Source of the DNA: a virus
DNA: 22,462 nt
IMG/VR virus record: IMGVR_UViG_3300037635_000773
Coordinates: 1-22,462 of that record
Reading direction: 5' to 3' (one strand)
Shown: one piece after another, positions 3,801 through 19,814 of the stretch
Layout: every line of letters begins with the position of its first letter
Numbering within the stretch: the stretch's first letter is position 1
The notes under the pieces: model-generated
Told to the model about the DNA's origin: nothing
Seen by the model: the letters and a program-made list of their open reading frames with translations, nothing else
Databases searched by the model: none
Position numbers and translations under genes: made by a program

Positions 3801-4886
3801 CACTTTACACCAGATGGTCAAGCAGTATGGGTGTTCTACAGAACAGGTACTTCAGCAACAAACCACATTCACGCACTCTTTTCTCTAAGAAAGCCTTTTA
3901 GGCCAGACCAAGGATATACAAGTTCTTATACCTATAGTACTAGCGGAAATCTTGTTAGAGGTACGAGTACTTCTAGTGACTACCCTCAAATGGCTTTCTA
4001 TGAAGGTAGGGGTAATGAAGTTTATGTTGGTGCTTATCGGGGAGACTTTTTTAACCAAGACTCACAAGACCCTGTAACAAACAGACATGATCCTGTAATC
4101 TTTAGAACATATGAATCAACAAGTAATACTTATGGTCACCTTATTGGTCAAAACACTATTAACGACTTTTTAGGTATTACACGTCTATCGACATTTATGT
4201 CTAATGCATCAGATGCTCACTTAACACCTGATGGTAAGTATTTGTTCGTTCTAAGAGAATCTGGTACTATCTACAGAATAGAAACACAAAGTGAGTACTT
4301 AAAAGATGTCACTCCACACGATCAATACATCCCATTGATTACAAACAATACAGGTCAGATTAATACTGCTGACTGGACGGATATTAACTCAATGGATGCT
4401 GATGATGGTGGAGATGGTACTAAGTACTATGCATTCTCTACAGATGGACGTACAACGTTTGAGATTTTAGATAACTCAAACGGTACTCGTAATATCATTC
4501 GTGATAACTCAGGTACGTGGCAGTATAATAGTAACACCACCTATGATTCTGAAACTTGGACAAACGCTACGTCAAACACTATCTACTCTGCATTGAGAGA
4601 TGCATTAGCTGTTACTCAAAACCAAATGGTTACATCACAGCTAGAGGCTGTTTCAGATGCTCAGTTCTTTGCAGCAGGTAATACTTTTGACTTAGCTATC
4701 ATCTTACGTTCTTCTGAGGGTATTGATGCAGCACCTTATTCTGATGGTGTCTCAGTAAACTATGATGCTGCTGCATTGAACAAAGGTGCTATCCTTGGCA
4801 CAGACTACGATTATGACGTACCTTCTAGTACTTCTGTTCGTATCACATCTCTAGCATCACAAAACTTGAAGGTTAAGGTACTGTAA
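816..4886 (+). CDS. Giant tail fibre/adhesin with beta-propeller-like repeats
   Basis: This 1356-residue protein starts with a fibre module (ITDGSIKNADIAPDAAIDVSKLDGV) and two 13-residue LDGVTAT units at residues 39-64. Residues about 107-245 form a second module seen in marine phage fibres. Residues about 278-1165 contain about 15 divergent units of 50-75 residues, each with a DG or NG turn before a hydrophobic strand (NDDGTKIMWI, SDDGTKIVWI, SEDGTKLFYL, TPDGKYLFVL). Several also carry a TAFDLTTA-like strand. The pattern is that of TolB/YVTN-type beta propellers. The tail contains FSTDGRTTFEIL and ends in a DYDYDVPSS...VRITSL module. A ribosome site (AAGGGG) lies before the ATG. I infer a receptor-contacting fibre carrying one or more propellers. 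It is much longer than its neighbours. Confidence 0.85.
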   Translation: MAYIGNQPAPSNVNSDSITDGSIKNADIAPDAAIDVSKLDGVTATNTELNTLDGVTATTADLNITTGADAAGVTTSDIQKTQYLSSVTSDVQTQLNNAAGASVKGTLTKSFTENETATVSLSAASTPTPIVSVTKEVPQLGVFSKGNWDVNSSGSNYDIEDTATATTLTPSVADDDGVFTLGSGSFASTDVGKRIVGNGGEAVLKTTAGAYELVTAFADTSTIASGDWEMYAVKFDGTKAKLSGFFERANTTGNVTNSKVVKTITFPRATFNMTSFEFNQDKKKMYISSVGNSYSYQQFWSIGLNDAFDLSEVWFNNDEIEDAQAVAGEIYNLTASNDGHKVFFIDNRDNYNPTYYNKQAPAQAVIYERNAEKRYHYTYTEPSGAIHWDGEDVDNNFNRIRFYNNGNDIFILCSGVTPRMLKYAAVTANSIQGLPTGATDYAQSLDISGNVGTTNPQIARSFDFSADGFNLYISDDNTDTMFHYQLTTAFDLTTASYVGSQTFSNIKDFRINDDGTKIMWIKNTSINVTTLSTAYSIATLGSTETVNINSNNTNTNGYARDIVWANSGQELFFNVGDSYIRKMICTEAYNLDTAKQYIQSTDSSKTNFANVGSNWGVALSDDGTKIVWIGNTNDNADTIKSDTMSTAFDLGTLSGSPSSYTQTNNNYHPMYFPRIQYSSNGNTQYVYTMASDNTNFMRQQFGTHWSAGTLGGVNVQNMSESSANRGDASQGLAFNDSGTSFVTSARNSSYFKHRDNGNTNTARYSYPTLSFSFSKGASPTSCSHNAGLALDTLDIGRKNQHQFRCPTAFNNDGTGLLVTHWTNDNPVVSEIKLDAAYSISTTFNRDNSSSTSYQSISLSGFTGSTQGIYISEDGTKLFYLSQTTGTNNPVIHSRTFGTPWDLTTLGATVTSKNLSFSGIGSSERVRNLQFTHGGKYFWTWNGDDGQFYGAPLATAYDITTTGAAIVESWNGTIGSYGGTSISNTPGTGTGPGNCWHFTPDGQAVWVFYRTGTSATNHIHALFSLRKPFRPDQGYTSSYTYSTSGNLVRGTSTSSDYPQMAFYEGRGNEVYVGAYRGDFFNQDSQDPVTNRHDPVIFRTYESTSNTYGHLIGQNTINDFLGITRLSTFMSNASDAHLTPDGKYLFVLRESGTIYRIETQSEYLKDVTPHDQYIPLITNNTGQINTADWTDINSMDADDGGDGTKYYAFSTDGRTTFEILDNSNGTRNIIRDNSGTWQYNSNTTYDSETWTNATSNTIYSALRDALAVTQNQMVTSQLEAVSDAQFFAAGNTFDLAIILRSSEGIDAAPYSDGVSVNYDAAALNKGAILGTDYDYDVPSSTSVRITSLASQNLKVKVL
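930..1007 (+). repeat. Two 13-residue LDGVTAT fibre repeats
   Basis: Two tandem units encode LDGVTATNTELNT and LDGVTATTADLNI. Related units occur in the short fibre gene at 5008-5085. Codon choice differs between units, so the repetition is old at the DNA level but kept in the protein, as expected of a fibre shaft. Confidence 0.7.
1647..4310 (+). repeat. About 15 propeller-blade-like repeats in the giant fibre
   Basis: Repeat turns start near protein residues 278, 336, 402, 463, 511, 566, 620, 678, 735, 810, 871, 931, 999, 1059 and 1138. Spacing is 48-79 residues, mostly 54-68, close to the length of one propeller blade. Two units, at about 2346 and 2673, are nearly identical in DNA over the GATGATGGTACTAA core. 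The number of blades per propeller cannot be decided by eye; two propellers of seven or eight blades would fit. Confidence 0.6.
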
Positions 4887-18332: not shown

Positions 18333-18530
18333 AATACCATGTATTGCTGCACTTCGTTCTGCCCACATCTGCACCTCTACTAAGTTCTTAAGTGCTTCGT
18401 GTTTCTCTTCAGTGCTGTGTAAGTTATCTACTATGTATTGCCGTAGATTCTTAACACCTTCTTGTAACCCTGCCCTAAACTGTTTCTGTCTCCCAGAGAT
18501 AAACGCTTCTGCCTCTTTCTCTAGTGTCAT
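18324..18530 (-). CDS. Small conserved phage protein, 68 residues
   Basis: I place the start at 18530 (MTLEKEAEAFISG) rather than at the further ATG at 18560. The 18530 ATG overlaps the phoH stop as ATGA and has GAAGGAAGG three bases upstream. The protein is a charged helix-rich chain without membrane segments or known motifs; it ends with VEVQMWAERSAAIHGIKK. Short proteins of this look follow phoH in some marine phages, as far as I recall. It is probably translationally coupled to phoH and is last in the leftward unit. The function is unknown. Confidence 0.7.
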   Translation of the reverse strand: MTLEKEAEAFISGRQKQFRAGLQEGVKNLRQYIVDNLHSTEEKHEALKNLVEVQMWAERSAAIHGIKK

Positions 18531-19240
18531 ATACCTTCCTTCATAAACACCTTCACCCATTGTGCACAGATGTCACTACGTATAATGTCATCCACACCAA
18601 ACTCCACAACAGGTACAGGTATCATGTGTTTCTTTGCTAGGTGAATAACTTTAGACAGACCATCACCTTCCTTTAAGTCTGACTGTTGTATGTCACCATT
18701 AAGCACAATAGTACTACCTTCACCTACACGAGTCAACAACATCTTAAGCTCATGTGTAGTAATGTTCTGCGTTTCATCTACTATAATGAATGCATTATCA
18801 AAGCTACGCCCACGCATCAAAGCTAGAGGAGCCATCTCTACATTGTTGTTCTTGATGGCTGTCTCTAACATACCCTTACCCCAGTGTTTCTCTAGCACGT
18901 CAAGCACAGGTAATGCCCAAGGGTAAACCTTCTCCTCTAAGCTACCAGGTAGGAACCCAATGTCCTTACCTACAGCTACGTGAGGGCGTGTGATAACGAT
19001 CTTGTCAATCTCTTTGGTAGTGTACAAGTCTGCTGCATAGGTTGCTGTGACGTAGGTCTTACCAGTCCCTGCAGGTCCAAGTACAAACACCTGATTGTAT
19101 GTCTTCAGATGGTCAAGAAACTCACGCTGTCTTTCTGTTCTGGGTATAAGTCCAGAGGTCTTCTTGGATTGGCTGTTCTTGTAGTTTGTCTTTCGGCGTG
19201 TCCGTGTTTGCTTCTTCGGTGGTTCCAAGTCTATGTTCAT
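18527..19240 (-). CDS. phoH: PhoH-like P-loop ATPase
   Basis: This 237-residue protein has a Walker A motif GPAGTGKT (55-62), a Walker B motif FIIVDE (151-156) followed by TQN, and the PhoH-typical blocks ITRPHVAVGKDIGFLPG and LNGDIQQSD. PhoH proteins are cytoplasmic ATPases related to the N-terminal part of superfamily 1 helicases. The gene is very common in marine phages and its role in infection is unsettled; a link to phosphate stress or RNA metabolism has been proposed. The first ~35 residues are basic and variable, normal for phage PhoH. They overlap the C-terminal end of the upstream nuclease gene by 119 bases in another frame. The ATG has only a distant, weak ribosome site, so it may depend on coupling. 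A start further inside would keep the P-loop. Confidence 0.92.
   Translation of the reverse strand: MNIDLEPPKKQTRTRRKTNYKNSQSKKTSGLIPRTERQREFLDHLKTYNQVFVLGPAGTGKTYVTATYAADLYTTKEIDKIVITRPHVAVGKDIGFLPGSLEEKVYPWALPVLDVLEKHWGKGMLETAIKNNNVEMAPLALMRGRSFDNAFIIVDETQNITTHELKMLLTRVGEGSTIVLNGDIQQSDLKEGDGLSKVIHLAKKHMIPVPVVEFGVDDIIRSDICAQWVKVFMKEGI
18534..18542 (-). promoter_or_regulatory. Ribosome binding site deciding the 18530 start
   Basis: GAAGGAAGG on the minus strand ends three bases before the ATG at 18530 and lies inside the end of phoH. It supports the shorter, ATGA-coupled start. The alternative start at 18560 would lie upstream of this site. Confidence 0.65.
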
Positions 19241-19766
19241 CTAAGTTATCTAGTACCTCTATTGCTTGTTTTACAGTTAGTTTAAACCACTCTCCGTTTA
19301 CTTCCTCTGCAATTTTAGCTGCTCTAGTATGTGCTTCTTGCTCTGACTTACGTCTATTGTTAGAGCTTACACTATGTTCTAGTATGTAGTCACGGTGTGG
19401 GCTGCTAGTTTGATAACCGTTACAACGATCTTCTGCATCAATAGCCATACCTATCTTAACCCAATCAGGCCATGCCTTGTTTGTTATAACATAAACGTAC
19501 CCTTCTTTAATATTGCTTATTTCTGATTGCTCAAATATAGCATCGTTTATGTTTTTATAATGGCCTGGTTTAAATATCTTATAACGAGGGTCTTTACGAG
19601 AAACGTATTTACCGTTTATGTAAAGGTTTTGTTTGTTTTGATAAGGGTTTTTCTTGTCATTCATTTTTTTATGACAAGGCTGACATATATAATAATGTTT
19701 ACGCTGACAACTAGGTAACCAGTTATCATCACTTAATATAATATCACACTTTGTACAGTTACTCAT
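19122..19766 (-). CDS. GIY-YIG superfamily nuclease (T5orf172-type) with zinc-finger N-terminus
   Basis: The 214-residue protein has an N-terminal CxxC pair (C4, C7) and a second pair (C28, C31, in YICQPCHKK), which suggests a zinc ribbon. A T5orf172/GIY-YIG-like domain lies at about residues 88-170: GYVYVITN, VKIGMA, an arginine in EDRCNGY, a glutamate in SEQEAH, and the closing NGEWFKL. Such free-standing phage nucleases often act as mobile or homing endonucleases that cut DNA; some serve other DNA-processing roles. GAGGAG six bases before the ATG supports the start. The last ~40 residues are polar, lie beyond the domain, and overlap the 5' end of phoH. The front part is noticeably more AT-rich than its neighbours, which fits recent transfer. 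The target is unknown. Confidence 0.82.
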   Translation of the reverse strand: MSNCTKCDIILSDDNWLPSCQRKHYYICQPCHKKMNDKKNPYQNKQNLYINGKYVSRKDPRYKIFKPGHYKNINDAIFEQSEISNIKEGYVYVITNKAWPDWVKIGMAIDAEDRCNGYQTSSPHRDYILEHSVSSNNRRKSEQEAHTRAAKIAEEVNGEWFKLTVKQAIEVLDNLDEHRLGTTEEANTDTPKDKLQEQPIQEDLWTYTQNRKTA

Positions 19767-19781
19767 AACATTCTCCTCGTT

Positions 19782-19814
19782 AAAGAAAAGCCCAGCGCCT
19801 TAACGCTGAGCCTT
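19782..19814 (-). terminator. Intrinsic terminator after the dNTP-synthesis genes
   Basis: On the minus strand GCTCAGCG, loop TTAAGG and CGCTGGGC form an eight-pair stem (one G-T pair), extendable by flanking A-T pairs. It is followed by TTTTCTTT. It lies seven bases below the stop of the 51-residue ORF and 16 bases above the start of the nuclease gene, so it divides the leftward arm. Confidence 0.85.

Follow-up and report, generated by a model that had tools for sequence, protein, structure and literature searches.

T5orf172 genes have been described as phage homing endonucleases that lie beside essential genes and whose domains can be swapped, and Zn-finger DNA-binding domains are usual in these enzymes (PMC10448857). 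The free-standing endonuclease genes segC, segF, mobA, and mobC of phage T4 overlap a neighboring phage gene, in their case the upstream ORF, by 11–24 bp (PMC2988022). Among other DNA-cleaving enzymes of mobile elements, transposases carry C-terminal motifs of the clamp-binding type (Q-L-x-L-F-like), which can arise anew and lie at different positions in homologs (PMC4549789). In eukaryotes, the HNH nuclease ZRANB3 is recruited by PCNA to replication sites via short clamp-binding peptides (PMC5481773).

We analyzed a 22,462-nucleotide viral sequence (IMG/VR record IMGVR_UViG_3300037635_000773, hereafter the window) in which a putative GIY-YIG nuclease gene of the T5orf172 type precedes and overlaps phoH. 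This gene resembles ICP1-type T5orf172 homing endonucleases in its Pfam domain, N-terminal Cys finger, free-standing position next to a conserved gene, and mosaic body, but differs in having a tail that overprints the next gene and carries a conserved docking-like motif; homing is here only putative (PMC10448857). Unlike the T4 endonucleases, it overlaps the downstream gene, by 74–128 nt among related loci and with coding constraint in both frames (PMC2988022). It shares with the transposases a clamp-type C-terminal motif that changes position, although it is a nuclease, its motif lies in an overprinted frame, and binding is predicted only (PMC4549789). ZRANB3 is unrelated and offers an analogy only (PMC5481773). 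A sibling system occurs in related phages, where an endonuclease VII gene (PF02945) occupies the same slot before phoH and has a candidate clamp motif at a terminus; it differs in belonging to an unrelated family, in having the motif at its N terminus (MQLDLF), and in overlapping phoH by 26 nt or less. We found no earlier report in the literature of a homing endonuclease or a phage endonuclease VII combined with clamp binding.

A T5orf172 nuclease gene that reads into phoH

The nuclease ORF (19766..19122, minus strand, 214 aa) and the phoH ORF (19240..18527, minus strand, 237 aa) share positions 19122..19240 (119 nt, counting the nuclease stop codon), with phoH in the +1 frame relative to the nuclease. 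The T5orf172 domain abuts the phoH ATG, and the nuclease tail of ~39 residues, encoded by the same DNA as PhoH residues 1–39, consists entirely of overlap. The first-pass annotation had noticed this arrangement from the letters of the window, and it recurs in relatives. In 36 distinct loci, the nuclease gene extends into phoH by 74, 80, 92, 95, 110, 116, 119, or 128 nt without any change of relative frame; one further locus has a 101-nt overlap. We consider it virtually certain that the overlap is real and recurrent. The loci include those of Roseobacter phages CRP-2 and CRP-603, to which the window is ~88% identical over the phoH/nuclease region. CRP-2 and its relatives form an HMO-2011-type group (PMC9038755), and the window is very likely of this type also.

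The nuclease matches PF10544 (T5orf172) over residues 89–174 (19245..19502, minus strand; 1e-12, 48.9 bits against a cut-off of 20), and the catalytic residues G89, Y92, K104-I105-G106, R114, and E142 are invariant in an alignment of 28–30 homologs. The profile match and the catalytic residues identify the protein as a T5orf172 nuclease, with cleavage predicted only. Four nearly invariant cysteines (C4, C7, C28, and C31) form an N-terminal Cys-x2-Cys ... Cys-x2-Cys finger (19674..19757, minus strand) that presumably binds DNA. An AF2 model had a mean pLDDT of 75, and its best PDB match, the GIY-YIG protein Slx1, was not significant (E = 0.29). Residues 181–214 had pLDDT <50, placing the tail in a flexible terminus that is predicted to be disordered. 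Nuclease bodies are mosaic across loci, while the last helix and tail are common to them; N-terminal and central parts have been exchanged among L161, L170, L171, L184, and other loci with the last helix and tail unchanged. Homologs at genomic sites other than this one terminate around residue 177–190, with little overlap and no such tail, and five GIY-YIG nucleases encoded before phoH stop after 8 nt of phoH.

The phoH product is identified as a PhoH-like protein by its profile match (PF02562, residues 32–232, 2e-64) and its P-loop (GPAGTGKT). The first-pass annotation had described the 5′ region of phoH as variable and basic. At the protein level, it is instead conserved: nearly all of 176 distinct phoH loci, drawn from IMG/VR and phage records and with or without a nuclease, encode the N-terminal motif R[ST]RRKTxYKxxxxKx[TV]SG, which in the window begins as RTRRKTNYK (19178..19204, minus strand) within the overlap. 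Because nuclease-free relatives have this N terminus, the phoH start at 19240 is supported, and a start downstream of 19122 is not; aligned PhoH N termini indicate an ancient, pre-existing segment, kept with and without the nuclease, into which the nuclease reads. Neither of the two outcomes named in the first-pass annotation as refuting its history was observed.

In the records of CRP-2 and CRP-603, phoH is annotated 150 nt (50 codons) late, at the V51 codon adjoining the P-loop (4323–4886 of locus L160, MK613344.1 19277–19840; 4367–4930 of L161, MZ892991.1 19260–19823). The counterpart in the window is phoH codon 51 (GTG, 19088..19090, minus strand). The DNA of both phages contains the same upstream phoH ATG and N terminus, and conservation of that N terminus rules out V51 as the start. 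The late annotation, which conceals a 128-nt overlap, probably reflects a gene caller avoiding such an overlap. As the first ~20 PhoH residues were also of low confidence in structure prediction, flexible segments in both proteins would explain how both frames fit.

Selection on the nuclease frame within phoH

According to the first-pass annotation, the nuclease frame ran on into phoH until a chance stop. Several observations speak against this. In 129 nuclease-free loci, the corresponding frame stops mostly 8–17 nt into phoH. When codon choice was simulated while preserving the PhoH protein, the probability of a frame open as long as that observed was ~0.000–0.011 per sequence, and that of an open frame with the tail motif described below was ~1e-4; no nuclease-free locus contained the motif in an open frame.

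We also examined synonymous divergence in phoH. Since PhoH third positions are nuclease first positions, changes that are synonymous in PhoH almost always alter the nuclease. In 19 sequences whose nuclease tails end in QGSLF, PhoH-synonymous divergence was 0.041 over the motif codons, compared to 0.469 in 38 nuclease-free relatives, while after the nuclease stop it was 0.359, compared to 0.343; as tailed loci are related, these and the following synonymous contrasts are descriptive rather than independent trials. When 191 five-codon windows were ranked in this group, the five with the greatest reduction were those covering the motif. The third bases that specify Q, L, F, and the stop were invariant, while the base for the middle residue varied (giving S, C, or G). 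Nuclease bodies in the group are as little as 63% identical at the nucleotide level (median 75%). For the 15 sequences of the long-tail group, to which the window belongs, the strongest reduction among 191 windows likewise fell in the tail (0.035 compared to 0.442), centered on LQE[QR], which in the window corresponds to LQEQP (nuclease residues 195–199; 19170..19184, minus strand). In addition, the PhoH Thr/Val codon that sets the L or F of the motif ends in C or T in 15 of 15 long-tail sequences, compared to 50 of 127 scored nuclease-free loci. Coarse synonymous-rate bins showed only a mild dip, and it was the group-specific, codon-level analysis that brought out the freezing.

Constraint is thus detectable in both frames over 19122–19240, with PhoH-synonymous sites frozen in the tail and free past the nuclease stop. 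Together with the improbable openness of the frame, this freezing leads us to conclude, with high confidence, that the nuclease frame is under selection and the tail is a selected protein segment.

Exchange at the slot before phoH

A tree of the phoH core interleaves tailed and nuclease-free loci. Many tailed phoH genes have a core as close to that of nuclease-free as to that of tailed phages, while their codons 6–34 match those of tailed phages only. The clearest case is a pair of near-identical relatives that are polymorphic for the nuclease at a single site: L286 (tailed) and L015 (untailed) share 99.7% identity across the 1,869 bp that end 6 bp short of the nuclease ATG, and their phoH genes are 99.8% identical from codon 40, with differences essentially ending near codon 30. 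From these alignments, the exchanged unit is the nuclease plus the 5′ end of phoH (the first ~30 codons). Its mosaic boundaries are compatible with co-conversion but also with ordinary recombination. The first-pass idea of a mobile nuclease inserted just before phoH therefore holds insofar as the nuclease can be exchanged at the slot, which L286, L015, and the nuclease-free relatives bear out, but fails as a simple insertion, since the unit takes in part of phoH.

The slot is flanked upstream by a glutaredoxin gene (PF00462; 19978..20208, minus strand). Just 5′ of the nuclease gene is a terminator-like hairpin with a U run (19787..19814, minus strand; −18.2 kcal/mol, z = −3.7), the sequence of which is common to the L286 and L015 alleles. 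In tailed alleles, phoH lacks an obvious nearby Shine-Dalgarno sequence.

Other genes also occupy the slot. An endonuclease VII gene is found there in L015 and about 45 other loci. Of 43 distinct slot endonuclease VII proteins, 42 have an N-terminal Q-L-x-L-F followed by freely varying residues, and the 43rd begins V-QMDLF from a GTG; by position, Q is present in 100%, the first L in 95%, the second L in 83%, and F in 93%. The motif was absent from endonuclease VII relatives in other contexts. The proteins start MQL[D/E/N][L/F/M]F in L015, L009–L018, L179, L187, L209, L194, and others, where the ORF ends no more than about 26 nt past the phoH ATG. In CRP-207, a copy just downstream of phoH begins MQLSLF. 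No endonuclease VII match was detected anywhere in the CRP-2 and CRP-603 genomes, as would be expected if the GIY-YIG gene were an alternative to it in the slot.

L194, which has endonuclease VII in place of the GIY-YIG gene, nonetheless contains QGSLF-encoding DNA within phoH (codons about 14–26), preceded by a stop; this DNA is likely a relic of a lost nuclease. In L254 and L253, the slot encodes an unrelated 141-aa protein (ORF −425..+1 relative to the phoH ATG) that ends in IQQELF and has no Pfam match; it is possibly another type of nuclease with a clamp motif. In L036, L038, L041, L056, L293, and many other loci, proteins of ~148 aa that end in FFHIPYT.AEL.. and belong to one family fill the slot.

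A candidate clamp-binding motif and its alternatives

All 34 distinct tailed proteins contain the motif Q-x-x-[L/F]-hydrophobic, as a pentamer or as a C-terminal hexamer. Versions in relatives include QADLW, QADFW, QTDFW, QGDFGF, and QTSFGF, as well as QGSLF at another position in the tail; the version in the window is QEDLW (nuclease residues 201–205; 19152..19166, minus strand). The motif was found in none of the five untailed GIY-YIG nucleases at the same site. Among 53 non-nuclease slot genes, the loosest pattern occurred in three and the strict pattern in none. A search of 16,265 residues in CRP-2 gave two occurrences of the strict motif, one of them in the nuclease tail. We judge it probable that the tail is a docking motif of some kind.

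The bacterial clamp-binding motif has been described in the form QL(S/D)LF (PMC9690074) and as Q-phi-x-[L/M]-[F/L] or a hexamer, Q-phi-x-[L/M]-x-[F/L], exemplified by QLVLGL of Pol IV (PMC11139829). QLDLF is the strongest clamp peptide; Gly is tolerated at position 2 but lowers affinity, and Trp at position 5 makes a Pol III alpha peptide bind the clamp more weakly (PMC11139829). Terminal QGSLF fits this consensus except for Gly at position 2, terminal QTSFGF and QGDFGF have Phe at position 4, and QEDLW of the window is off at positions 2 and 5. Thus, by comparison of residues, the QGSLF and QTSFGF/QGDFGF tails appear to match reasonably, while QADLW and QEDLW match less well. CRP-2 encodes a family A polymerase, and no DnaN-family match was detected in four complete relatives; therefore, any clamp would be that of the host. 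We lean toward the beta clamp as the tail's target for the group as a whole, and less so for the window's own QEDLW.

The reading that best accommodates these data, which we hold with moderate confidence, is that an exchangeable nuclease is tethered to the clamp by a docking tail overprinted on phoH. The C-terminal tail, probably disordered and overlying the first 39 phoH codons, would present a short linear motif anchoring the nuclease on the host's beta sliding clamp (DnaN), and the N-terminal MQL[D/E]LF of endonuclease VII probably acts likewise. Tethered in this way, the nuclease would be delivered to the replication forks of the host or to other DNA loaded with clamp, which could help it to attack host DNA, compete with other phages, or spread itself. 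A more ambitious version is possible, though we advance it only tentatively: the slot would accept nucleases of unrelated folds, each with a host-clamp docking peptide that the GIY-YIG enzyme makes by overprinting phoH, and the phages' own family A polymerase would let cutting be aimed at clamp-loaded host or rival DNA while their own is spared. Several points count against the clamp-tethered nuclease reading. The window's own QEDLW departs from the consensus, as noted above. The nuclease and 5′ phoH move as a unit, and part of the codon freezing may reflect shared descent. Moreover, 53 distinct slot proteins are not recognized nucleases, and no nuclease is thus obligatory in the slot.

The tail could instead have been selected as protein for another end, such as nuclease stability, binding to another phage or host protein, or DNA recognition, with its likeness to clamp motifs incidental. 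We consider this rather unlikely, although it is the strongest competitor. The most frozen codons of the long-tail group, LQE[QR]P, lie just upstream of Q-x-D-[L/F]-W, an observation that also counts directly against the clamp as target; Trp is a poor clamp residue at position 5 (PMC11139829), and clamp binding is a prediction from sequence. Against this alternative stand the two different tail positions of the motif (terminal QGSLF and Q-x-x-[L/F]-[W/G]) and the exact clamp consensus at the N terminus of endonuclease VII, an unrelated protein that fills the same slot.

It is improbable that the overlap is frozen as DNA, with 5′ phoH containing the nuclease's own recognition or immunity site and nuclease-bearing alleles keeping the protected sequence. 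Such a site would fit the end of the exchanged unit near phoH codon 30 and the habits of homing endonucleases, which often target the neighboring gene. Flanking sequence can be co-converted (PMC2988022). However, the constraint tracks the nuclease reading frame and ends at its stop codon, the base for the variable middle residue is free, the same tail is found on very different nuclease bodies, and the two tail groups have the same type of motif despite their different DNA.

Less probable still is neutral read-through, in which an inserted mobile nuclease ran to a chance stop and was tolerated by a flexible PhoH N terminus. The predicted flexibility of both overlapping segments, the ends of homologs at other sites near residue 177–190, and the range of stop positions (74 to 128 nt) are all compatible with it, but the frame-openness and synonymous-site tests, which revealed a frame rarely open by chance and under purifying selection to its stop, led us to reject it, and the tails share a terminal motif. 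Finally, an RNA element in 5′ phoH (for example, for translation control) is the least probable source of the codon freezing: the weak, invariant stem predicted over the motif codons of the QGSLF group showed no covariation, there was no Rfam match, and the overlap in the window had no structure beyond that of shuffles, so that we rejected such an element; nuclease-free relatives also lack the freezing.

The clamp-tethered nuclease with an overprinted tail thus remains our preferred reading, and the locus has implications beyond it. Gene callers can conceal an overlap of this kind: in two reference genomes, the annotated PhoH is 50 residues too short. In a group of marine phages, the overlap provides a selected, dual-coded protein segment with natural controls, namely alleles that have the second frame, alleles that lack it, and a constraint that is switched off at a stop codon. 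It also illustrates that an exchangeable nuclease cassette can take part of its neighbor's gene along. Lastly, recruitment by the host sliding clamp is a testable candidate mechanism for two unrelated families of phage nucleases.
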